Made by a program: the position numbers and the translations under genes
Shown here: in pieces, positions 27,212 through 36,558 of the stretch
Position numbering within the stretch: position 1 is the first letter of the stretch
Layout: each line of letters begins with the position of its first letter
Notes under the pieces: generated by a model
What the model was told of the DNA's origin: nothing
Database searches by the model: none
Seen by the model: only the letters and a program-made list of their open reading frames with translations
From: Haloprofundus halobius
Lineage (GTDB): Archaea; Halobacteriota; Halobacteria; Halobacteriales; Haloferacaceae
NCBI RefSeq assembly: GCF_020097835.1
Contig: NZ_CP083666.1
Coordinates: 1,612,001 to 1,676,000 of the forward strand
Direction of reading: 5' to 3'
Length of the DNA stretch: 64,000 nucleotides

Positions 27212-27267
27212 AAATGATTTTCCCAGAGTCAAGGTTTAAGTGGGTGGCGTCCGTACAATGGAGTGTT

Positions 27268-27813
27268 ATGAGTACGCAGAAGACGGTTCGTCAGCCGGCG
27301 GACGAAGTCGAGGAGACGGCCCTTCGCATCGAGAAGGACAAAGCCGAGCAGATCATCGACGCGCTCAACACCGACCTCGCGAACGCGTACGTGCTCTACC
27401 ACCAACTGAAGAAGCACCACTGGAACGTCGAGGGCGCGGAGTTCCTCGAACTCCACCGCTTCCTGGAGGAGGCGTACGAACACGTCGAGGAGGGTGCCGA
27501 CATCATCGCCGAGCGCGCGCAGGCACTCGGTGGCGTCCCGGTCGCTGGTCCGTCGAACCAGGAAGAGCGCGCCACCGTCGAGTTCGAGGGTGAGGACGTT
27601 TACGACGTCCGCACGTCGCTGCAGAACGACCTCGAGATGTACGGTGACATCATCGAGGACATGCGCGAGCACATCCAACTCGCGGGTAACCTCGGCGACC
27701 CGGCGACCGAGGAGATTCTCCGACGGATTCTGGTCGAAGTCGAAGAGGACGCCCACCACATCGAGCACTACCTCGAAGACGACACGCTCGTGCTCGAAGA
27801 AGCGACGCACTGA
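27268..27813 (+). CDS. dpsA: DNA-protecting ferritin-like protein DpsA
   Basis: A 181-residue Dps. The ferritin-like four-helix bundle starts near residue 30, with the Dps ferroxidase signature LYHQLKKHHWNVEGAEFLELHRFLEEAYEHVEEGAD split over two helices (His plus Asp/Glu ligands). A C-terminal helix runs through VEEDAHHIEHYLED. Dps dodecamers oxidise Fe2+ with peroxide, store ferric iron and protect DNA. A TATA box lies 28-33 bp before the ATG at 27268, giving a leader of only a few bases. An iron-box palindrome is just upstream. Transcribed singly; a T5 tract follows at about 27850. Confidence 0.95.
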   Translation: MSTQKTVRQPADEVEETALRIEKDKAEQIIDALNTDLANAYVLYHQLKKHHWNVEGAEFLELHRFLEEAYEHVEEGADIIAERAQALGGVPVAGPSNQEERATVEFEGEDVYDVRTSLQNDLEMYGDIIEDMREHIQLAGNLGDPATEEILRRILVEVEEDAHHIEHYLEDDTLVLEEATH

Positions 27814-27846
27814 GACGAGAGCAGTCGGCCGACCGGACCATTCTCT

Positions 27847-27856
27847 CCATTTTTCC
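27847..27856 (+). terminator. T-rich terminator after dpsA
   Basis: CCATTTTTCC about 35 bp after the dpsA stop. A short poly-T tract like this is the usual archaeal termination signal. The following stretch up to 28024 contains no gene that I can see. Confidence 0.5.
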
Positions 27857-28024
27857 CGCCCGATAGCCGCGCAGTCGTCGACCGAGAGCGCAGGCGAGAC
27901 GCAGCGGAGACTGAACGGAGCGGGGAGTGAAAACGGAGGCCCGCCTCGGGCGTCAACCGGGGAGGGGCAACCGACGTCAGGTACCAAGAGGACGCATCAC
28001 CAGGAGTTGACGCCGGAGAGCGGG

Positions 28025-28186
28025 CTACCGCTGGAGGACGACGGTGTAGTCAGTCGCTATCCAGCCGTCGTTGTTGCCGTCTTCGGTGAATACGGTTCGG
28101 TTCTGTGAGGTTTGACACGCCGAAACGGAGAACTCGGGCTCCGCAGGGATGGCGGAGTCGTCGTCGCGGGCGTCGGAGACAGCCAT
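28025..28186 (-). CDS. Iron-box-controlled 53-aa protein
   Basis: A complete small gene: ATG at 28186, TAG at 28025-28027, 53 residues, pI clearly acidic. It begins MAVSDARDDDSAIPAEPEF and has one cysteine (SACQTSQNRT). It ends with a motif that looks conserved in haloarchaeal small proteins: TVFTEDGNNDGWIATDYTV. No membrane segment. Two TTNGG-N4-CCNAA boxes flank its TATA box (28195-28208 and 28221-28234), so expression should be tightly controlled by an iron-responsive DtxR-type repressor. The start lies close to the inferred transcription start, making the message nearly leaderless. Function unknown; dpsA is its neighbour. Confidence 0.75.
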   Translation of the reverse strand: MAVSDARDDDSAIPAEPEFSVSACQTSQNRTVFTEDGNNDGWIATDYTVVLQR

Positions 28187-28194
28187 GGATAGAG

Positions 28195-28208
28195 TTAGGT
28201 GAGCCTAA
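28195..28208. promoter_or_regulatory. Iron-box 1 of the 53-aa gene (TTAGGTGAGCCTAA)
   Basis: Inverted repeat TTAGG-TGAG-CCTAA, the best match in the window to the DtxR/IdeR half-site pattern. It lies between the TATA box and the ATG at 28186 and would cover the transcription start, a repressor position. Confidence 0.7.
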
Positions 28209-28210
28209 AG

Positions 28211-28219
28211 CAATATAGG
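28211..28219 (-). promoter_or_regulatory. TATA box of the 53-aa gene
   Basis: Minus-strand CCTATATTG, centred about 29 bp from the ATG at 28186. It is sandwiched between the two iron boxes. Confidence 0.65.
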
Positions 28220-28220
28220 T

Positions 28221-28234
28221 TTTGGTTGCCCTAA
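28221..28234. promoter_or_regulatory. Iron-box 2 of the 53-aa gene (TTTGGTTGCCCTAA)
   Basis: A second TTNGG-N4-CCNAA match, centre-to-centre 26 bp from box 1, immediately upstream of the TATA box where TFB would contact DNA. The paired arrangement suggests cooperative binding of two regulator dimers. Confidence 0.6.
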
Positions 28235-28299
28235 ACGGGTTCTGAGACCGACGTTCACCGGTGAGAAGGCGTGACCCCCGCGGAATCCCACGCCTCGGC

Positions 28300-28980
28300 T
28301 CAGACGGGTATCCAGTCGTTCGGGAGCGTCCGGTCGGGGAACGTCCAGCGGTGTTCCGGGATGCCGTCGCACATCCGGAGTTCGATGATACCGTCGAAGA
28401 CGTCGGCGAGTCCGTCGACGACCGGGTCGTCGAGGGGGGAGGAGAGGTGGTAGTGCGCCATCCCGGAGACGGAGTCGATTCGACCGCCGACGACGCTGAC
28501 GAAACGTCGAACCGCTCCGACACCGTGGTCTTCGACGAGCGGTTGCAGCGAGTCGAGACACAGCCGCAACTCGCTGGGGGCGAGCGACTCTCCGGACTCG
28601 AACGAGTGGATGGCGTCGCCGATGGCCCACGAGAGCGACCCGACGCCGTCGGCTTCGACGTACTCCCGGGAGACGGGGCCGCCGAGGTTCGACCCCGAGA
28701 GACTCTCGGCGGCCAACGCTCCGCGGACGACGGCCGACTGCGTCACCACGCGCAGCGAGTCAGCGTCCCGCGGGCCGTTACCGAGATTTTCGTGCGTGTG
28801 TACGCCGTCGGTGAAGACGAACAGCCGCTTGCGCGACTCGACCGTGGCGTCGCCGAGAAGGCGTCGCGTGAGTGACTGCCGCGCGTCGGGAGCGGTGGAT
28901 CCGACGACGAGGATGTTGCACCCCTGTCGTTTCAACTCCGAGAGCGTTCGGGTGAAGGAATTTTGCCCGGGGGTGTTCAT
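28300..28980 (-). CDS. Haloarchaeal DUF7504-like (RecA/KaiC-fold-like) protein
   Basis: A 226-residue protein starting MNTPGQNSFTRTLSELKRQGCNILVVGST, a strand-loop like the start of a degenerate RecA/KaiC ATPase. It lacks a canonical Walker A lysine. Later segments SRKRLFVFTDG, LRVVTQSAVV and LRLCLDSLQPLVEDHG fit the haloarchaeal family I know as DUF7504 (number from memory). Members are often encoded beside signalling genes; none is next to this one. Cytoplasmic. In-frame codons upstream of 28980 look non-coding. Confidence 0.75.
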   Translation of the reverse strand: MNTPGQNSFTRTLSELKRQGCNILVVGSTAPDARQSLTRRLLGDATVESRKRLFVFTDGVHTHENLGNGPRDADSLRVVTQSAVVRGALAAESLSGSNLGGPVSREYVEADGVGSLSWAIGDAIHSFESGESLAPSELRLCLDSLQPLVEDHGVGAVRRFVSVVGGRIDSVSGMAHYHLSSPLDDPVVDGLADVFDGIIELRMCDGIPEHRWTFPDRTLPNDWIPV

Positions 28981-29079
28981 TATTCGAAAAGAAACGATGG
29001 AGTGTACAATAAACATTGTGGGTGCGACACCGACGCGAGTCGGTAGGCGTTTTGTGGATGGCCTCGAACGAGGGCGTTG

Positions 29080-30156
29080 ATGACGGATTCGCTGTTCAGC
29101 CCGCTGACCCTTCGAGGGACCGAGATTCCGAACCGCGTGATGGTTTCGCCGATGTGTCAGTACTCTTCGCCGGACGGCGTCGCCACCGACTGGCATCGCG
29201 TCCACCTCGGGAGTCGAGCAGTCGGCGGGGCCGGTATCGTGATGACCGAAGCGACGGCAGTCTCGCCGGTGGGACGAATCTCGCCGGACGACCTCGGTAT
29301 CTGGACGCAGGAGCAAGCCGACGCGCTCGCGCCCATCGCGTCGTTCATCCGCTCGCAGGGGAGTCACCCGGCGATTCAGTTAGCCCACGCCGGTCGCAAG
29401 GCGAGCACGCATCGACCGTGGGACGGCGGCGGCCCCATCTCACCCGACGAGCGAGGGTGGGAGGTGTACGGACCGACCGACGAACCGTGGCCGCGCGAGG
29501 AGTCGTACCCGAAGACGCACGCGCTCGATGAGGATGACCTCTCGGTCGTCGTCGACCAGTTCGCGGAGGCCGCCAGACGCGCGCACCTCGCCGGTTTCGA
29601 GATAGCCGAGGTCCACGCCGCCCACGGCTACCTCCTCCACGAGTTCCTCTCGCCGGTCATCAACACTCGAGGGGACGACTACGGCGGCAGTTTCGAGAAC
29701 CGCACGCGGCTCGTCCGCGAGGTCACCTCGGCGGTTCGAACCGTGTGGCCCGACGACAAGCCGGTGTTCGTCCGCATCTCGGCGACCGACTGGCTGCCGG
29801 ACCGTGAGTCGTGGGACCTCGAACAGTCGGTTCGTCTCGCGCCGCTGCTCAGAGAGGCCGGCGCCGATCTCGTCGACGTGAGCTCCGGCGGTATCCACCC
29901 CGACCAGCAGATCACCAACACGGGCGCGGGCTACCAGGTCAAGTTCGCCGAGTCCATCCGTGAGGAGGGCGAGATACCCGTCGGCGCGGTCGGAAAGATA
30001 ACCGAGGCCGAACAGGCCGACCAACTGATCCGGAACGAGCGTGCCGACCTCGCTATCGTCGGCCGCGAGCACCTCCGAGACCCGTACTTCACGCTCCACG
30101 CCGCCGAGAAACTCGGTGTCGACGTCGACTGGCCGGTGCAGTACCGCCGCGCGTAA
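29080..30156 (+). CDS. Old yellow enzyme-family NADH:flavin oxidoreductase (YqjM-like)
   Basis: A 358-residue FMN TIM barrel. The YqjM-type signature SPMCQYSS puts a cysteine at residue 26, exactly the redox-tuning Cys26 of Bacillus YqjM. The substrate-binding HAG in QLAHAGRKAST and the barrel motif EVHAAHGYLLHEFLSP are present. The phosphate-binding end GAVGKITEAEQADQLI ... ADLAIVGREHLRDPYF is complete. YqjM-class enzymes reduce activated C=C bonds with NADPH. The ATG at 29080 is preferred over the adjoining TTG. Confidence 0.93.
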   Translation: MTDSLFSPLTLRGTEIPNRVMVSPMCQYSSPDGVATDWHRVHLGSRAVGGAGIVMTEATAVSPVGRISPDDLGIWTQEQADALAPIASFIRSQGSHPAIQLAHAGRKASTHRPWDGGGPISPDERGWEVYGPTDEPWPREESYPKTHALDEDDLSVVVDQFAEAARRAHLAGFEIAEVHAAHGYLLHEFLSPVINTRGDDYGGSFENRTRLVREVTSAVRTVWPDDKPVFVRISATDWLPDRESWDLEQSVRLAPLLREAGADLVDVSSGGIHPDQQITNTGAGYQVKFAESIREEGEIPVGAVGKITEAEQADQLIRNERADLAIVGREHLRDPYFTLHAAEKLGVDVDWPVQYRRA

Positions 30157-30247
30157 CTGACAGTCGGTCCATTGCGTCGCTGTCACCGCCTCGAATCGCT
30201 GCCGTCCGGACGAAGCCTTATTCCCCTCAGCTACGCAACGTGAACGT

Positions 30248-30988
30248 ATGAGCCGCCGCGACGACGACCTCGAAGAACTCCTCTCGGAGTTAGAGGAGAC
30301 GCTGTCGGAGCTCCGAGCCGAACTCCGCGAGGAGCGGACGCCCCGCCGCCGACCGTTCGAACCGCCGACGCCGAGAGACATCCTCCGCTTCACCGAGGAG
30401 TACACCATCCCGACGGTCATCTCGACGCTGGAGGCGACGATTCAGGCGCTCGAACTGTTTCGGCGACTGCTTCGTCTGGCCGATCCCGAGCGCGCGATAC
30501 GCGAGGAGAGTAAAAGCGCCCGCGAGACGACGCGCCGACACGCCGACGACGTGGGCCGCGTCGCCGTCGACGGACTGGAGCGCGCGCTCACCGAGCTTCA
30601 GCGGGCGCTCTCGGAGGCGAACCTCCCCGAAGAGAGCGAGTCCCGCGACATCGTCGAAGAGGCACGACAGCTCTCCAGAGATATCGAAGAGCGTCTCGCC
30701 GAGTCACAGCGGCGGACGGACGACGCGGACCGACGGCGCAGTCGCTCGACCGACGACCGAGCGCGACGAAACGGACGCGAGGAGACGCTGGACGAGGGGG
30801 CGGTCAGAATCGCCGTCAGCGACGAGGAGAGCGACGGTGCCGACGACGCTGACGAGCGCGAGGAGTCCGAAGACGAAACGGACGAGACACAGACGGTCGA
30901 CATCGAGTCGGAACTGGATTCGATTCGCGACGAGGTCGAGCGGGCGGAGCGCGGCGAAGAACCGAAATCCGACGACGACGAGGAGTAG
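30248..30988 (+). CDS. Acidic coiled-coil protein (DUF7547-like), function unknown
   Basis: A 246-residue protein. An N-terminal coiled coil (LEELLSELEETLSELRAEL) leads into a more conserved core, residues about 40-90 (TPRDILRFTEEYTIPTVISTLE, ALELFRRLLRLADPERA). Helices with heptads follow, and a C-terminal tail of about 60 residues is almost all Asp/Glu. A TTATTCC box 24-30 bp before the ATG indicates a leaderless message. No membrane segment. The family name is from memory. A structural or scaffold role is possible but unproven. Confidence 0.75.
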   Translation: MSRRDDDLEELLSELEETLSELRAELREERTPRRRPFEPPTPRDILRFTEEYTIPTVISTLEATIQALELFRRLLRLADPERAIREESKSARETTRRHADDVGRVAVDGLERALTELQRALSEANLPEESESRDIVEEARQLSRDIEERLAESQRRTDDADRRRSRSTDDRARRNGREETLDEGAVRIAVSDEESDGADDADEREESEDETDETQTVDIESELDSIRDEVERAERGEEPKSDDDEE

Positions 30989-31111
30989 CGACTCGGCGCA
31001 GAAGTGGCGAACAGACGGTGGAACCGAGCGCGCGACGGGCCACCGTGCTCCCGCCTCGGCCGTCGTGCGCGACTCGTCAACTCACGCGGAAGGCTGGCCG
31101 CTTCTTCTCTC

Positions 31112-31116
31112 AAAAA
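31112..31116 (-). terminator. T5 tract after the Cys-rich peptide gene
   Basis: Minus-strand GTTTTTG nine bases after the stop of the 42-aa gene, a typical archaeal termination tract. It supports a short independent transcript. Confidence 0.45.
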
Positions 31117-31124
31117 CGTTCACG

Positions 31125-31253
31125 TCAGCAGCAACAGCAGGGAGTGCAGCACGACGAGCAGGCGTCTCGGCGTTCGATAGTCGATTCCGCACAGCAACTG
31201 CGTTCGGTACAGTCGTTGGATGTCACGAGTGGTCCTCTGTCCGCTGTCGACAT
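31125..31253 (-). CDS. Cysteine-rich 42-aa peptide (metallothionein-like candidate)
   Basis: An ATG at 31253 opens a 42-codon frame ending in TGA at 31125-31127. Ten of 42 residues are cysteine (positions 15, 20, 21, 32, 35, 36, 39-42). The C-terminus is CSSCCTPCCCC and the rest is polar, without aromatic residues or hydrophobic segments. Such density and CC/CxxCC spacing suggest a metal- or thiol-buffering peptide, though it matches no metallothionein I can name. It is divergent from an HxlR regulator that itself ends in a cysteine cluster. An inverted repeat (31237-31264) is centred on its start codon, and a T5 tract follows the stop. Coding status needs confirmation because of the short length. 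Confidence 0.55.
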   Translation of the reverse strand: MSTADRGPLVTSNDCTERSCCAESTIERRDACSSCCTPCCCC

Positions 31254-31264
31254 ATATCGGACAG
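31237..31264. promoter_or_regulatory. Inverted repeat over the Cys-rich peptide start codon
   Basis: Seven-base arms CTGTCCG and CGGACAG with a 14-bp spacer. The spacer holds the ATG of the 42-aa gene and an ATATAT tract. A second pair, TGTCGA (31245-31250) and TCGACA (31269-31274), is interleaved with it. The position between two divergent genes suggests an operator for the HxlR protein encoded at 31342. Confidence 0.5.
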
Positions 31265-31341
31265 TGTATCGACATCAAGCTGGTTTCTGCGCGGAAACCG
31301 GTCGGCCACGTTTACCCGCCGTCGGCGCGTATCGGCCCCCA

Positions 31342-31731
31342 ATGACGAACGCGGACGCCGAGGACTGGCAGACGCTCTGGCACGGACTCCACGAGACGCT
31401 CGGCGGGAAGTGGGCGCTACACGTGCTTCGGCTGCTCTCGGAGCGAGACGCGGGGTTCAACGAGATGCGCCGCGAACTCGACGGCGTGACGGCGAAGACG
31501 CTCTCGAAACGACTCGGGGAACTGCGCTGTCGCGGCCTCGTCAGTCGAACCGTCGAGGCGTCGTCGCCGCCGCGAACGCGGTACGCGCTGACGCCGGCGG
31601 GCGAGCGATTCGTCTCCGTACTGCGAGACGTGGAATCGCTGGTGTCGGTCGTCGACTGCGGGTGCGACGACCGCTGCGGAGTGCTCACCGTCGACGCCGA
31701 CGCGACGGCGGCTTGCGCCGAGCAGTGCTGA
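31342..31731 (+). CDS. HxlR-family winged-helix regulator with C-terminal cysteine cluster
   Basis: A 129-residue MarR/HxlR-type regulator. Residues 10-95 are the HxlR fold (LGGKWALHVLRLLSERDAGFNEMRRELDG, then TAKTLSKRLGELRCRGLVSR and wing RTRYALTPAGERF). HxlR proteins usually stop near here. This one adds a tail with cysteines at 106, 108, 112, 125 and 129 (CGCDDRC, ACAEQC), besides Cys63 in the DNA-binding region. That tail looks like a metal or redox/electrophile sensor. A TTTAC box (31310-31315) lies about 30 bp before the ATG, fitting a leaderless start. Divergent from the Cys-rich peptide gene. Confidence 0.88.
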   Translation: MTNADAEDWQTLWHGLHETLGGKWALHVLRLLSERDAGFNEMRRELDGVTAKTLSKRLGELRCRGLVSRTVEASSPPRTRYALTPAGERFVSVLRDVESLVSVVDCGCDDRCGVLTVDADATAACAEQC

Positions 31732-31741
31732 ACTCGCCGGA

Positions 31742-32128
31742 CTACTCGATCGGCCGGAACCGGTAGCCGTCCCAGTCCTGACTCTCCCGCTCGCGGATTC
31801 CGGCGTCGGGGTCGCGGAGTTCCGCGGCGTAGACGGGTTCGACCTCGTCGCCGATTTCGACCTCGTGGCTCTCGCCGTCGACGTCGAGTTGGCCGATGGC
31901 GCGGACCGGTTCGCCGTCGACGTCGAACTCGACGATGGCGAGCGAGTTCGGCGCGCGAACGCCCGGCGGCGTCGCCGTGCTCGTCGTCCACGTGACGACG
32001 GTGGCGGTGTACTCGCTCAGGTCGACGGTGCCGACCGGTTCCTCGCCGTCCGGACCGAGGGGATGTGGCGGGTACGTGATGCTACCGTCGGAGTATCGTG
32101 CCGCTTCCATGGGTGGGTTCTCGCTCAT
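31742..32128 (-). CDS. DUF35 OB-fold acyl-CoA-associated protein
   Basis: A 128-residue DUF35 protein whose OB-fold region runs through GEEPVGTVDLSEYTATVVTWTT and LAIVEFDVDGEPVRAIGQL. The usual N-terminal zinc-ribbon cysteines are missing. Its ATG overlaps the thiolase stop by 4 bp (32125-32128), so it is translationally coupled to it. In archaea, DUF35 proteins bridge thiolase and HMG-CoA synthase and channel acetoacetyl-CoA. This copy lacks an HMGCS neighbour, so another beta-oxidation or degradative role is equally possible. Confidence 0.87.
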   Translation of the reverse strand: MSENPPMEAARYSDGSITYPPHPLGPDGEEPVGTVDLSEYTATVVTWTTSTATPPGVRAPNSLAIVEFDVDGEPVRAIGQLDVDGESHEVEIGDEVEPVYAAELRDPDAGIRERESQDWDGYRFRPIE

Positions 32129-33279
32129 CGTTCCGCCTCCAGAATCGTGGTGATGACGCAGTTGCCGAAGCCGCCGACGTTGCAGGCGAGGCCGGTGTCG
32201 GCGTCGACCTGTCGTTTCCCGGCGTCGCGGGTGAGCTGCTTGTAGATCTCGTACACCTGCGCGACGCCCGACGCGCCGAGGGGGTGGCCCTTCGACTTGA
32301 GGCCGCCGGAGGTGTTGATCGGGAGGTCGCCGTCGCGGTCGGTGACGCCGTCGTCGACGGCCGTCCAACCCTCGCCCTTCTCGAAGAAGCCGAGGTCTTC
32401 GGACTGGAGGAACTCGAGGATGGTGAACATGTCGTGCAGCTCCGCCACGTCGATATCCTCGGGACCGAGGTCGGCCATCTCGTAGGCGATGTCGCTAGAG
32501 TTGACGACACCGCTCATCGTCGTCGGGTCGGCGCGCTCGTGGACGACGTGGGTGTCCGTCGCGCCGCCGATACCCGAGACGACGGCGTACTCGTCGGTGT
32601 ACTCGCGGGCGGCCGACTCGGGGCAGAAGAGGAGCGCCGCGCTCCCGTCGGTGATGGGACAGAAGTCGTAGAGACGGAGCGGGTCGGCGACGACGGGCGA
32701 CTCCAACACGGTGTCAAGGTCGACCTCCTTTCTGAACTGCGCGTGGGGGTTGTCGACGCCGTTTCTGTGGTTCTTCACCGCGACTTTGCCGAGACTCTCG
32801 CGGGGGGCGTCGTACTCGTTGAGGTAGAGCCGCGCCGTGAGTCCGGCGAAACTCGGGAGCGTGACGCCGTGTTTGTACTCGACGGGGTGGGTGAGCGAAG
32901 CGATGACGTCCGTGGATTCGGCCGTCGTCCGGTGCGTCATCTTCTCGCCGCCGACGAGCAGCGTCATCTCGCTCGCGCCGGAGGCGACCGACTGCCACGC
33001 GGCGTAGGTGCCCGCGCCGCCCGACGAGGAGGTCTGGTCGATGCGAGCGGTGTACGCCGGCATCGCCGCGATGTCGTGTGCGAGCGCGTTCGGGATGCCG
33101 GTCTGACCCTCGAACTCGCCACTCGCCATGTTCGAGACGTAGAGGTGATCTATCGCGTCCGGTGCGACGCCCGCGTCGTCGAGGCAGGCCTGCCCGGCCT
33201 CCGCGAGCAACTCGCGAATCCAGGCGTCGCGCTGCCCGAAACGGGTCATCGACGCACCGATAATCGCTACGCGTTCCAT
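32125..33279 (-). CDS. Thiolase-fold protein lacking the usual nucleophilic cysteine
   Basis: A 384-residue thiolase (SCP2/archaeal acetyl-CoA acetyltransferase type). The fold markers MERVAIIGASMTRFG, GHPLGASG (catalytic His) and the C-terminal CNVGGFGNC (second catalytic Cys) are present. The N-terminal nucleophile motif, normally xxCASG, reads DQTSSSGGAG, with serine in place of cysteine. Thus it cannot form the usual acyl-Cys intermediate. It may work as a Claisen-type partner, a thioesterase-like enzyme or a regulatory subunit. Coupled to the DUF35 gene downstream; a related Ser-variant subfamily exists in haloarchaea as far as I recall. Confidence 0.87.
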   Translation of the reverse strand: MERVAIIGASMTRFGQRDAWIRELLAEAGQACLDDAGVAPDAIDHLYVSNMASGEFEGQTGIPNALAHDIAAMPAYTARIDQTSSSGGAGTYAAWQSVASGASEMTLLVGGEKMTHRTTAESTDVIASLTHPVEYKHGVTLPSFAGLTARLYLNEYDAPRESLGKVAVKNHRNGVDNPHAQFRKEVDLDTVLESPVVADPLRLYDFCPITDGSAALLFCPESAAREYTDEYAVVSGIGGATDTHVVHERADPTTMSGVVNSSDIAYEMADLGPEDIDVAELHDMFTILEFLQSEDLGFFEKGEGWTAVDDGVTDRDGDLPINTSGGLKSKGHPLGASGVAQVYEIYKQLTRDAGKRQVDADTGLACNVGGFGNCVITTILEAER

Positions 33280-33375
33280 ACCGGACGGGTGCGGGCCACC
33301 CGCTTACCGGTTTCCCTTCTGGAACGTCACGCGCGTCTCAAACGCTTTAACCGCCCCGCGAACCGAACGGTCGGT

Positions 33376-33789
33376 ATGCGCACCGCAGACGCCGCTGCCA
33401 CCGCCGGCACCGTCGCCAGTCTCGTGCTCCTCGTCGTCGTCGCCGTCCCCTACCTCGTCGTCACCAATCCGGAGGCACCCGTGTCGGCGTACTACGCCGC
33501 GGGATCCGTCGGGGCGAACAGCGTCGGCTTCCTCGCGGCCCTCGCCGCCGTCGTCTTCCTCTCGGGGACGCGCGGCAACGCCGAACCCGATTTGGTCGCG
33601 GGTATCGCCGTCGTGCTCGGCCTCGCAATGGTGGCGCTCTCGCTTCTGTGGGCGACGGCCATCGACACGACGCTCCTGTTCAGTTTCCCGCCCGAGGCGG
33701 CGTGGATACAGAACCACCGTTGGGTCGTCGTCGCGCTCTCGTCCGTCGTCGCCGTCGTCGCCGGCGTGTACGCCCGCGAAGTGGTCTAA
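33376..33789 (+). CDS. Four-helix haloarchaeal membrane protein (DUF7548-like)
   Basis: A 137-residue integral membrane protein with four hydrophobic segments: VASLVLLVVVAVPYLVV, VGFLAALAAVVFL, LVAGIAVVLGLAMVALSLLW and VVVALSSVVAVVAGV. A short periplasm-facing loop contains TLLFSFPPEAAWIQNHRW. No catalytic motif. The family name is from memory. Divergent from the thiolase operon; the ATG at 33376 lies close to the expected transcription start. Confidence 0.72.
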   Translation: MRTADAAATAGTVASLVLLVVVAVPYLVVTNPEAPVSAYYAAGSVGANSVGFLAALAAVVFLSGTRGNAEPDLVAGIAVVLGLAMVALSLLWATAIDTTLLFSFPPEAAWIQNHRWVVVALSSVVAVVAGVYAREVV

Positions 33790-33856
33790 AACGCGGACGC
33801 GGGCACGGACCGAGGACCGCGCCGTCTCCGTGTTCTCCCGCGACTGGAGTCGAAAG

Positions 33857-33864
33857 GGCCTTAA
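33857..33864 (+). promoter_or_regulatory. TATA box of the SRP RNA gene
   Basis: GGCCTTAAG-type box centred about 27 bp before the inferred 5' end of the 7S RNA at 33888. Confidence 0.5.
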
Positions 33865-33887
33865 GTCATACCCGAGTAACTTCGAGT

Positions 33888-34193
33888 GGACTAGGTCGGG
33901 CAGTTAGGCCCTGCTCTCCCACCCGCCATAGAGTCTTCAGCGGGGACCGAACGTCGGGCGCGTCCGGTCAGACCGGTACGGGCCCCGAAAGCCAACGTAG
34001 AAACCTCGTCCTGCGGGGACAGCGGTTTCGTGTCGCTCGTCCGCAGGGGCGAACCGACACGATTCATCGGCGGTACTGGGTCAGGCGCGGAAGCGAGCAG
34101 CCCACCGTCGGACGTGTGTCGCTCGTAGGATCGCGGGGTGGAGGAGGCAACCGGGATTCCCCGTACCGGAACGCCGGGCAACCCCGACCGTCC
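33888..34193 (+). ncRNA. ffs: Signal recognition particle 7S RNA
   Basis: An archaeal SRP RNA of about 306 nt. Its ends pair (GGAC..GGTCGGG with CCCGACC..GTCC), closing helix 1/5. The SRP54-binding helix 8 is unmistakable: GGTCAGGCGCGGAAGCGAGC continuing into AGCCCACC, with the conserved GGAA tetraloop and asymmetric loop. The helix-6 region with GGAGGCAACC follows. It scaffolds SRP54/SRP19 and targets ribosomes making membrane and Sec proteins. The exact 5' and 3' ends are inferred from pairing and the TATA distance. Confidence 0.92.
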
Positions 34194-34291
34194 GCATTCA
34201 TACCGATTTTGAACCGCGAGCGGTCGCGCTGTCGATAGCTCGCACAGGTGACTCCGGAACCCATAGGTCCCACAGTTCCCAACGACGAGCC

Positions 34292-34561
34292 ATGAGCGAA
34301 GCCAGCGCCGGCGACGTGGAGGCACGCTACTACGAAACGGACGGCGAGCGCATCGTACAGTTCTCGCGGGAGGGACGGACGGCCGCTATCGCCCAGAACG
34401 TCGACGGCTACGCGATGCTGAAAGTCAGACCGGCCGCCGACGGCGACGAACTGGAACGCTACTACGGCTTCGAGATGGCGTTAGACCACGCCGCCGAGTT
34501 GCTCGGCGTCTCGCCGCACGACCTGCCGGTGCCCGACGACGCCGAAGATATGGGGATGTGA
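34292..34561 (+). CDS. Small haloarchaeal protein (DUF7111-like), function unknown
   Basis: An 89-residue acidic soluble protein starting MSEASAGDVEARYYETDGERIV. A beta-rich middle (FSREGRTAAIAQNVDGYAMLKV) is followed by a helix around YYGFEMALDHAAELLGV. No motif for metal or nucleotide binding. The family number is from memory and unverified. It sits between the SRP RNA and pssA, convergent with pssA. Confidence 0.72.
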   Translation: MSEASAGDVEARYYETDGERIVQFSREGRTAAIAQNVDGYAMLKVRPAADGDELERYYGFEMALDHAAELLGVSPHDLPVPDDAEDMGM

Positions 34562-34580
34562 GCGTCCCGCGGCGGGTCGG

Positions 34581-35258
34581 TTAGCGACCCCAGTAGAATC
34601 GCGGCGCGAGAAACAGGTACGCCAGCGCCAGAAACAGCAGGCCGAAGGCGAACCCGCCGCCGACGCGGTGCGGGAACAGAATCGCCAGCGCCTGCACGAC
34701 GCCCATCACGAGCGCGTCCTGCGTGTGCAAGTCGGGGTACGGAATCGTCGTCACCATCAGCGCCGCGAGCAACGCCGTCAGTCCGACGAGCGGGAACGGG
34801 TCGGTGAAGCCGACGAGCACCCCCGCGGCGAGAATCGTCGCCGCGAGCGTCGTCGGGACGCCGCGGGTCTGGTCGGAGTCGGCGTCGTAGGCGGTGTACA
34901 TCCCGAGACGAGTGACCGCCATCACGACGAACAGCGCCGCGACGGCGACGGCGACGGCGACGCGAAGCGACCCGAAGCCCCAGACGGCCCGAACCGCGGC
35001 GACGACGACCATCGCCGGAGCCACGCCGAACGACGCCACGTCGGCCAGCGAGTCGAGGTACGGCCCGGCGTCGGTGCCGCCGTAACGCCGGGCGAGCACG
35101 CCGTCGAGGCCGTCGGCGATAGCGGCCAAGAGAATGAGCCTCGCGGCGAGACCCGGCGAGACGTTGGCGGCGGCGACGGCGAGAAACCCCAGTCCGGCGT
35201 TGCCGACGGTGACCACGTCGGCGACGCCCAACCGTCCGACGACGAACCGGGGATGCAT
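34581..35258 (-). CDS. pssA: Archaetidylserine synthase (CDP-alcohol phosphatidyltransferase)
   Basis: A 225-residue integral membrane enzyme with the complete CDP-OH-P motif DG-x2-ARR-x8-LDS-x3-D (Asp49, Asp52, Asp70, Asp73 region: DGLDGVLARRYGG, then LDSLADVASFG). About seven hydrophobic helices follow. It joins serine to CDP-archaeol. In haloarchaea the PssA/PssD pair makes archaetidylethanolamine, linked to archaeosortase (ArtA) lipid-anchored sorting of surface proteins. No pssD or artA is in the window. Confidence 0.88.
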   Translation of the reverse strand: MHPRFVVGRLGVADVVTVGNAGLGFLAVAAANVSPGLAARLILLAAIADGLDGVLARRYGGTDAGPYLDSLADVASFGVAPAMVVVAAVRAVWGFGSLRVAVAVAVAALFVVMAVTRLGMYTAYDADSDQTRGVPTTLAATILAAGVLVGFTDPFPLVGLTALLAALMVTTIPYPDLHTQDALVMGVVQALAILFPHRVGGGFAFGLLFLALAYLFLAPRFYWGR

Positions 35259-35388
35259 AGTTTTCGGGTTGCGGAGGTGCGGTATACGTTTTTACATCCG
35301 GCGTCGGCGAGTCGGCGCGTTCGGGTCGGCCGACGGTTTCGACGCGCATACCACGCCGCCTTTATCCGACCGGGACCGAGGTCCAGCC

Positions 35389-35850
35389 ATGAAGCGACGC
35401 GCGTTTCTCGCGGCGACTGGGGCGGCCGGCATCACGGCGCTCGCAGGGTGTGGTGGCGCGAGCGGACAGGGAGACGAGTACGACGTCGGCATGACGGCGA
35501 CGGCGTTCGACCCCCGCGAGATCACGGTCTCCGCCGGCGAGGAGGTCGTCTGGCAGAACACGAGCACCCGGGACCACACGGTGACCGCCTACGAGAACTC
35601 CATCCCCGAGGAAGCCGAATATTTCGCCAGCGGTGGTTTCGAGAGCGAACAGGCCGCCCGCGACGGCTGGCGCGATTTCGAAGGCGCGCTCAACAACGGC
35701 GACACGTTCACGCACACCTTCGAGGTGCCCGGACGGTACGAGTACGTCTGCATCCCCCACGAGAACGGCGGGATGGTCGGGACCGTCGTCGTCGAGGAAG
35801 GCTCGGGGTCGGGTTCGGGCAATCAGTCGCAGTCGAGCGACAGCTCGTAG
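35389..35850 (+). CDS. Halocyanin-like type 1 copper lipoprotein
   Basis: A 153-residue exported cupredoxin. A Tat-like N-terminus (MKRRAFLAATGAAG) ends in the lipobox LAGC, so Cys21 is probably lipidated. The single copper domain has all ligands: His63 in RDHTVTAY, then Cys121, His124 and Met129 in CIPHENGGM. A Gly/Ser linker tail follows. Halocyanins carry electrons at the outer face of the membrane. The ATG at 35389 lies about 28 bp after a TTTATCC box. Divergent from pssA. Confidence 0.92.
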   Translation: MKRRAFLAATGAAGITALAGCGGASGQGDEYDVGMTATAFDPREITVSAGEEVVWQNTSTRDHTVTAYENSIPEEAEYFASGGFESEQAARDGWRDFEGALNNGDTFTHTFEVPGRYEYVCIPHENGGMVGTVVVEEGSGSGSGNQSQSSDSS

Positions 35851-35901
35851 GTCGGCTTCGAGAAAAATCGAGTTCGCGGAGTTTGCGGCGTCGAAGCCGA
35901 G

Positions 35902-36558
35902 TTACTCGGCTTCTTCGGCGACTTCTTCGGCGATATCGGACTCGTCGACGTCGACGGCGGCCTCCTCTTCGGCTTCGACCTCTTCGGGACGCGCCTCCAG
36001 CGAGAGCTTCTGGACCTCGACCCGGCGGAGCGGGTAGATGGTCTTCGCCTCGCCGTAGATGGCCGAGGAGAGTCGGCCTTCGACGACGCTGTCGATGAGT
36101 TGCTCGAAACTCCGGTCGTCGGCGGCCTCGTGGACGAGGTCGATCATGACCCGGCGAATCGCCTGCTCCTGGCTGCGGTCGGCCTTCTTCGTCGTGAACG
36201 CCACGGGCTGGACCTGGACGCGGTAGTCGTCGGTCGTCAGGATGGTGATATTCACCTCGACTTTCGAGGCGCCGCGGCGAACCAGACTGCGCAGGTAGTC
36301 GCGCGTCAGTTCGTGCTGGATGAACTCGGTGTACGCCGAGTCCGATCCCACGTCGTTTATCTTGAACGTGAGTTTCGTGTTGTTCGCACCGGCGTCGTCG
36401 GTGAGTTCGCCGAGCGTGGTCTCGATGGTGCGTCCGTACACCATCTCCGGTTCCTCTGCGACGGTCTTGCCGAGTTCGGCCCGGTCGAACTGCTCGGGCG
36501 CGAGCACGGAGTACCATCGCTTGCCTCGTTTCTGCTTGGATACTGAACGTTCGCTCAT
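35902..36558 (-). CDS. rps3ae: 30S ribosomal protein S3Ae (eS1)
   Basis: A 218-residue ribosomal protein. The basic start SKQKRGKRWYSVLAPEQF, FKINDVGSDSAYTEFIQHEL, VRRGASKVEVN and the ending IYPLRRVEVQKLSLEA are diagnostic of S3Ae/eS1. A haloarchaeal Glu-rich tail is added. Last gene of a four-gene operon; its ATG overlaps the pcc1 stop by 4 bp (36555-36558). It binds the platform of the small subunit near the mRNA exit. Confidence 0.96.
   Translation of the reverse strand: MSERSVSKQKRGKRWYSVLAPEQFDRAELGKTVAEEPEMVYGRTIETTLGELTDDAGANNTKLTFKINDVGSDSAYTEFIQHELTRDYLRSLVRRGASKVEVNITILTTDDYRVQVQPVAFTTKKADRSQEQAIRRVMIDLVHEAADDRSFEQLIDSVVEGRLSSAIYGEAKTIYPLRRVEVQKLSLEARPEEVEAEEEAAVDVDESDIAEEVAEEAE

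Follow-up and report, generated by a model that had tools for sequence, protein, structure and literature searches.

A small Cys-dense peptide, a winged-helix regulator, and an inverted-repeat operator are combined in SmtA/SmtB of Synechococcus, the genes of which are divergent, and MymT, the mycobacterial copper metallothionein, is likewise short and Cys-dense and has CsoR/RicR as its regulators. The same combination, a metallothionein with an ArsR-type regulator, is known in NmtA/AzuR of Anabaena (PMC8790569). For haloarchaea, a copper survey of Haloferax mediterranei sought metallothioneins and found none (PMC9240420), and intracellular chelation has been credited to gamma-glutamylcysteine. 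Here, we analyzed a 64,000-nucleotide stretch of Haloprofundus halobius (the window; contig NZ_CP083666.1, positions 1,612,001 to 1,676,000), in which a gene for a 33-residue peptide containing ten Cys lies divergent from that of an HxlR-family regulator with a Cys-rich C-terminal tail. We favor the reading that these genes form a two-gene defence unit against soft metal(loid) ions, in which a metallothionein-like peptide is controlled by a Cys-tailed HxlR sensor, and we consider it probable, well short of certain.

The locus differs from SmtA/SmtB and NmtA/AzuR in its regulator, which is an HxlR protein instead of a member of the ArsR/SmtB family, and in its probable operator, GGTTTC-N6-GAAACC. 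Runs of Cys and a Cys-Cys-stop end take the place of the zinc-finger-like form of bacterial metallothioneins, and the peptide shares no detectable homology with MymT, whose regulator class also differs. The winged-helix fold and divergent targets are common to the HxlR/DUF24 regulators YodB, HypR, QsrR, and HxlR and to the present regulator, whereas a conserved Cys tail after the winged helix replaces the conserved N-terminal Cys of YodB, HypR, and QsrR. Among haloarchaeal proteins, HcsL and HcsS are also small with CC at the C-terminus, and their ars cluster holds a sister HxlR; they contain only two or three Cys against 8–18 in the present peptides, and their NCBIfam models matched none of the six peptides scanned. 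The C(P)XCG zinc-finger micro-proteins of Haloferax volcanii are also very small Cys proteins capable of metal binding (PMC11241148), but the peptides described here lack their paired motif and again have 8–18 Cys. A literature search, with subscription journals outside its coverage, returned no paper joining HxlR with metallothionein and none on the ‘halo-CC-star’ proteins, as HcsL and HcsS are named by NCBI. The metallothionein-plus-repressor kind of system is known; as far as our searches reach, what is new here is the family of peptides, the class of regulator, the operator, and the group of hosts.

Conservation of the peptide and regulator pair

The main elements of the locus are as follows (positions are those of the window).

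31125–31226, minus strand: Cys-rich peptide gene of 33 codons, most likely read from GTG (31226–31224) to TGA; product MTSNDCTERSCCAESTIERRDACSSCCTPCCCC
31342–31731, plus strand: gene of the HxlR-family regulator, 129 residues, with a Cys-rich tail (C106, C108, C112, C124, C129) plus C63
31282–31299, unstranded: probable HxlR operator, perfect dyad GGTTTC-TGCGCG-GAAACC, conserved across families

A preliminary description of this DNA had reported a minus-strand open reading frame (ORF) at 31125–31253, with 42 codons, ten Cys, and the end CSSCCTPCCCC, divergent from an HxlR gene with five Cys in a C-terminal tail. All of this was found as described. The regulator matched the HxlR domain PF01638 (E = 1.6e-16, 60.4 bits against the curated cut-off of 20.8), which places it in the family, and five Cys lie within its last 24 residues, in the tail VDCGCDDRCGVLTVDADATAACAEQC that follows the winged-helix domain.

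With the regulator alone as query, we searched 170 genomes from the window’s family and 392 from its order and then inspected the DNA beside each match; since the regulator was the only query, the peptide was not selected for by the search. This gave 22 close HxlR relatives from four haloarchaeal families, of which 21 had a small Cys-rich ORF immediately divergent. The divergent peptides are 27–89 residues long with 8–18 Cys (16–35%), and 18 of them end in Cys-Cys-stop. Ten loci belong to the window’s family, f1 in our numbering (L001, L003–L009, L014, L023), seven to f17, which comprises Halorussus and its kin (L035–L038, L041, L042, L047), three to f5 (L032–L034), and one to f12 (L046). The divergent unit proposed in the preliminary description is hence conserved, with a homologous peptide beside HxlR in 20 loci other than its own. 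The pairing also stands out from the background: when ORFs of 25–90 residues with at least 8 Cys and at least 15% Cys were collected, the 64-kb window contained only one, the peptide at 31125, and the flanks taken from 20 other genomes, 316 kb in all, contained 19, all of which were the homologous divergent peptide. A whole-genome profile search with the peptide alignment recovered just two loci because of composition bias and shortness, and the regulator was therefore used as bait. A phylum-wide search outside Halobacteriales found a single HxlR, which was tail-less.

All ten Cys columns are retained in three Haloprofundus species despite silent-site change. The proportions of synonymous and nonsynonymous differences between L001 and L004 were 0.73 (pS) and 0.20 (pN), respectively, and in f5 the nonsynonymous rate (dN) was 0.07–0.16 against a synonymous rate (dS) of 0.3–1.2; the nearest pair, L001 and L003, is by itself not decisive (dS 0.29, dN 0.18). 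This codon-substitution pattern, which had been suggested earlier as a check on the peptide, shows purifying selection. The pair is also lost together. In two congeners it is missing from the corresponding chromosomal site: both genes are absent in G082, and in G080 a single deletion took out the peptide gene together with two-thirds of hxlR from its 5' end, leaving a coding remnant of the Cys tail. In a further genome, G064 (L025), the operator is present and the peptide is not, and an insert of 14 residues interrupts the DNA-binding domain of the HxlR.

With ten Cys in 33 residues, the peptide has the small size and Cys density (about 15–35%) of a metallothionein, and no family was matched when it was scanned against the Pfam and NCBIfam models. 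In an alignment of ten regulator homologs (A1), C106, C112, and C129 are invariant and C63 is present in nine, with no conserved Cys before C63; the conserved N-terminal Cys of the redox- and electrophile-sensing subgroup (YodB, HypR, QsrR, CatR) is accordingly absent. An AlphaFold model shows an ordinary HxlR wing and core, followed by a low-confidence strand-strand-helix for the tail. The best structural matches in Foldseek were QsrR, YodB, and HypR, the profile matches in PDB included HxlR 7bzd, YodB, HypR, and QsrR, and weak matches to the redox regulators RrpA/RrpB were also obtained. In the window genome, the HxlR reading frame runs without a stop codon from as far upstream as 31018. The resulting 237-residue extended frame is unconserved in relatives and was rejected in favor of ATG 31342, which is preceded by a TATA-like box.

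Operator, promoters and start codon

The palindrome GGTTTC-N6-GAAACC occurs within two mismatches in 17 of the 21 peptide loci, where dinucleotide shuffles would give 0.17, and its centre usually lies 64–67 nt ahead of the peptide start. L009, L014, and L023, which belong to another clade, have the variant dyad ACTGTC-N6-GACAGT in its place. An operator conserved between regulator and target across species is what would be expected of a metal-responsive regulator of a thiolate peptide, and from its sequence the palindrome at 31282–31299 is the probable HxlR operator. The remaining features of the region are listed below.

31252–31257, minus strand: TATA box of the peptide promoter, ATATAT, with a similar hexamer equally placed in the aligned loci
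31260–31265, minus strand: ACTGNC element just upstream of the peptide TATA box (consensus aACTGaC---TtTATc, 16 aligned promoters)
31310–31315, plus strand: GTTTAC, TATA-like box preceding the HxlR gene; its opposite-strand TAAAC is conserved among the aligned promoters
31237–31264, unstranded: inverted repeat CTGTCCG...CGGACAG noted in the preliminary description, 7-bp arms
31112–31116, minus strand: T5 run 3' of the peptide stop

The 7-bp arms of the repeat at 31237–31264 do exist as first noted, but the left arm is unconserved even within the genus, being lost in L003 and L004, and the repeat was rejected as the operator. A second perfect dyad (G000:C1:1559615–1559632; L080:2016–2033) stands directly before a small Cys-containing, zinc-ribbon-like ORF; it is absent in all four congeners and was taken as a chance occurrence.

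The position of the operator bears on the sign of control. It precedes the peptide TATA box by 24 bp and the TATA-like box of the regulator by 10 bp, so that occlusion-type repression of the peptide is not implied; the start codon and the repeat of the preliminary description are not supported, and its geometry falls with them. Autorepression, activation from the upstream site, or both would fit at least as well as repression of the peptide. Since the operator is upstream of the peptide TATA box and next to that of the regulator, its position slightly favors peptide activation together with autorepression over simple repression.

The start codon first assigned to the peptide, ATG 31253, is not supported, as it overlaps the conserved box ATATAT and is missing in H. 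marisrubri. GTG 31226–31224 is most likely the start, because it gives a start-to-start distance to HxlR of 115 bp (88 bp from ATG 31253), which matches the 114–119 bp of most other loci, and because ATATAT, which corresponds in the alignment to the TTTATC/TTATAAG boxes found in relatives, is then located about 28 nt upstream, as theirs are. The 33-residue form retains all ten Cys of the 42-codon ORF. Leaderless transcripts are frequent in haloarchaea and would be expected from both genes, since their TATA boxes sit about 28 nt (peptide) and about 29 nt (ATG 31342) from the start codons. The ACTGNC element may be a transcription factor B recognition element (BRE)-like sequence or a regulator half-site, and its sequence is similar to the half-site of the operator variant in L009, L014, and L023. 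The T5 run was found on the minus strand after the peptide stop (31116–31112), as reported. It is present also in congeners, including two that lack the peptide and regulator genes, for which reason it may be part of the facing DUF7547 gene and not of the peptide gene.

Sister regulators and neighboring genes

In a tree of HxlR proteins, the peptide-paired regulators form one group, the single exception being L027, which has a long branch. In 12 loci (L012, L013, L015–L018, L020, L027, L040, L051, L052, L054), at about 1.4–1.5 kb into each oriented locus, a DUF2703 gene is divergent from that of a related HxlR whose tail Cys are spaced differently, and many of these DUF2703 products end in DCGCGC or PCC. 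GGTTTC-N6-GAAACC was found within two mismatches in 8 of the 12 intergenic regions (0.08 expected) and in none of 12 control regions taken from Rdx loci and tail-less HxlRs. DUF2703 is thioredoxin-like (PMC3091736), and in Rhodococcus it is located in an ars cluster and induced by arsenate (PMC6514093); an ArsP_1 gene lies near one of our DUF2703 loci (L018). The Cys-tailed HxlR/DUF2703 loci with their shared operator probably represent an arsenic-linked regulon, which is undescribed in the papers that we found. Other related HxlRs are located downstream of an Rdx gene ending in CSPGCC (7 loci). One such arrangement is carried by pHLAC01 of Halorubrum lacusprofundi (L087:1–6378), where arsB-arsR and arsD-arsA-hcsL-hcsS are followed by an M20 peptidase, an Rdx with the CSPGCC end, and a Cys-tailed HxlR. 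HcsL and HcsS of this ars operon end in GGGCC and AGGCC, and several unrelated proteins of the region have the Cys-Cys-stop end in common. Each of the 40 HxlRs that are paired with a thiol-rich product possesses at least three tail Cys, whereas the 5 without such a partner have none.

In all seven f17 loci, the next gene on the peptide’s strand, after a gap of 52–77 nt, encodes a cation diffusion facilitator (CDF) for metal efflux (PF01545, 9e-45; TIGR01297 above cut-off), and this gap contains a conserved GAtACrCCCTT element. No exporter adjoins the peptide in the other 14 of the 21 loci. In the window (27253–36000), the pair lies within a gene order kept across several genera of the family, namely, a Dps-like ferritin, an ene-reductase, DUF7547, the peptide and HxlR, a DUF35-like OB protein, a thiolase, and a halocyanin-like protein. 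These f1 neighbors represent old synteny that is retained where the pair was lost. The link to metals or thiols put forward in the preliminary description is borne out in part, by the metal and metalloid context of the f17 CDF genes and of the DUF2703 or ars genes next to sister regulators, and by a regulator Cys tail that tracks the thiol-rich partner.

Probable function of the pair

Soft metal(loid) binding is the most economical reading since it unites the Cys density, the C-terminal CC, the Cys tail of the regulator, the metal-efflux gene of one lineage, and the arsenic genes of the sister lineages. We infer that the 33-residue product is a metallothionein-like thiolate peptide whose ten Cys would bind soft metal(loid) ions, and that a dimer of the divergent HxlR would bind the palindrome between the genes. 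The Cys tail (C106, C112, C129, and perhaps C63) may sense the same ions or the loss of reduced thiols, which would alter DNA binding of HxlR so that the peptide is switched on and the regulator’s own level is adjusted. Candidate ligands are As(III)/Sb(III), as suggested by the sister systems, or Zn/Cd-type cations, as suggested by the CDF neighbor; Cu and Hg are conceivable as well. The geometry of the Cys sensor site is not fixed by the structure model, since the modeled tail is of low confidence. Several observations weigh against the metal(loid) assignment. The window’s own genus has no adjacent metal gene, the neighbors being the ene-reductase, DUF7547, and thiolase; the GAtACrCCCTT element may be the CDF gene’s own promoter; and the sister systems bear on a metal(loid) role only by analogy. 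In addition, the peptides are alike in Cys density and CC ends more than in fixed Cys spacing, so that a common cluster structure is not evident.

It is unlikely that the peptide is instead a thiol/redox or electrophile buffer, in which it would form a disposable thiol pool under a YodB/HypR/QsrR-like switch, with metals being incidental. The fold of the regulator, its weak RrpA/RrpB matches, and the Old Yellow Enzyme-type ene-reductase and Dps-like protein near the f1 loci agree with such a buffer; however, the sensing Cys of YodB, HypR, and QsrR is located N-terminally and has no counterpart in alignment A1, the f1 neighbors outlast the loss of the pair, and the genes linked in other clades are metal or metalloid genes. 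Somewhat less likely again is a metallochaperone, ArsD-like and perhaps halo-CC-star-like, whose C-terminal CC would pass the metal(loid) to an exporter (the CDF in f17; ArsA/Acr3 or others elsewhere) rather than store it. The prevalent Cys-Cys-stop, the f17 CDF genes, and the ends of HcsL and HcsS are in line with this role, but most loci lack an adjacent exporter, ten or more Cys exceed what a chaperone needs, and the peptides match no NCBIfam model at cut-off.

A thiazole/oxazole-modified microcin (TOMM)-like precursor, a ribosomally synthesized and post-translationally modified peptide whose Cys would be converted to thiazoles with HxlR as the pathway regulator, is very improbable. A TOMM-family model matched the L032 peptide weakly (E = 0.0049; 16.8 bits, below the cut-off of 35), but the pair has no conserved neighbor for modification, export, or immunity, and one YcaO copy is present in 24 of 24 genomes with or without the peptide, at a distance of about 20 kb at the nearest; this precursor role was rejected as no YcaO or modification gene is adjacent. 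Even less credit is due to a Cys-sensing leader peptide, an attenuator without a functional product. A same-strand gene does follow the peptide in f17, but none does in Haloprofundus, f5, and most f1 loci, on which ground this role too was rejected, and the non-Cys residues are also constrained in f5 (dN/dS about 0.1–0.2). Least probable of all is that the ORF arose by chance where a stretch rich in CAG/GCA runs antisense to the extended HxlR frame, which is indeed open in the window genome. The homologs at the 20 further loci, the zero background, the purifying selection, the mixture of TGC and TGT codons, and the fixed promoter spacing already contradict a chance origin.

With the metal(loid) defence unit as the favored reading, we regard it as evenly balanced whether these peptides are the founding haloarchaeal metallothionein family and their regulators part of a new class of metal(loid)-sensing HxlRs, in which one Cys-tailed lineage uses a common operator and is partnered by a thiolate peptide, DUF2703, or a CC-ended Rdx. 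Such peptides escape annotation because they are 27–40 codons long and may start with GTG. The locus offers a defined operator and matched natural losses for experiment. If the favored reading is true, a genetically encoded metal(loid) trap would be added to the haloarchaea, and the HxlR family would be shown to sense metals via a C-terminal tail.
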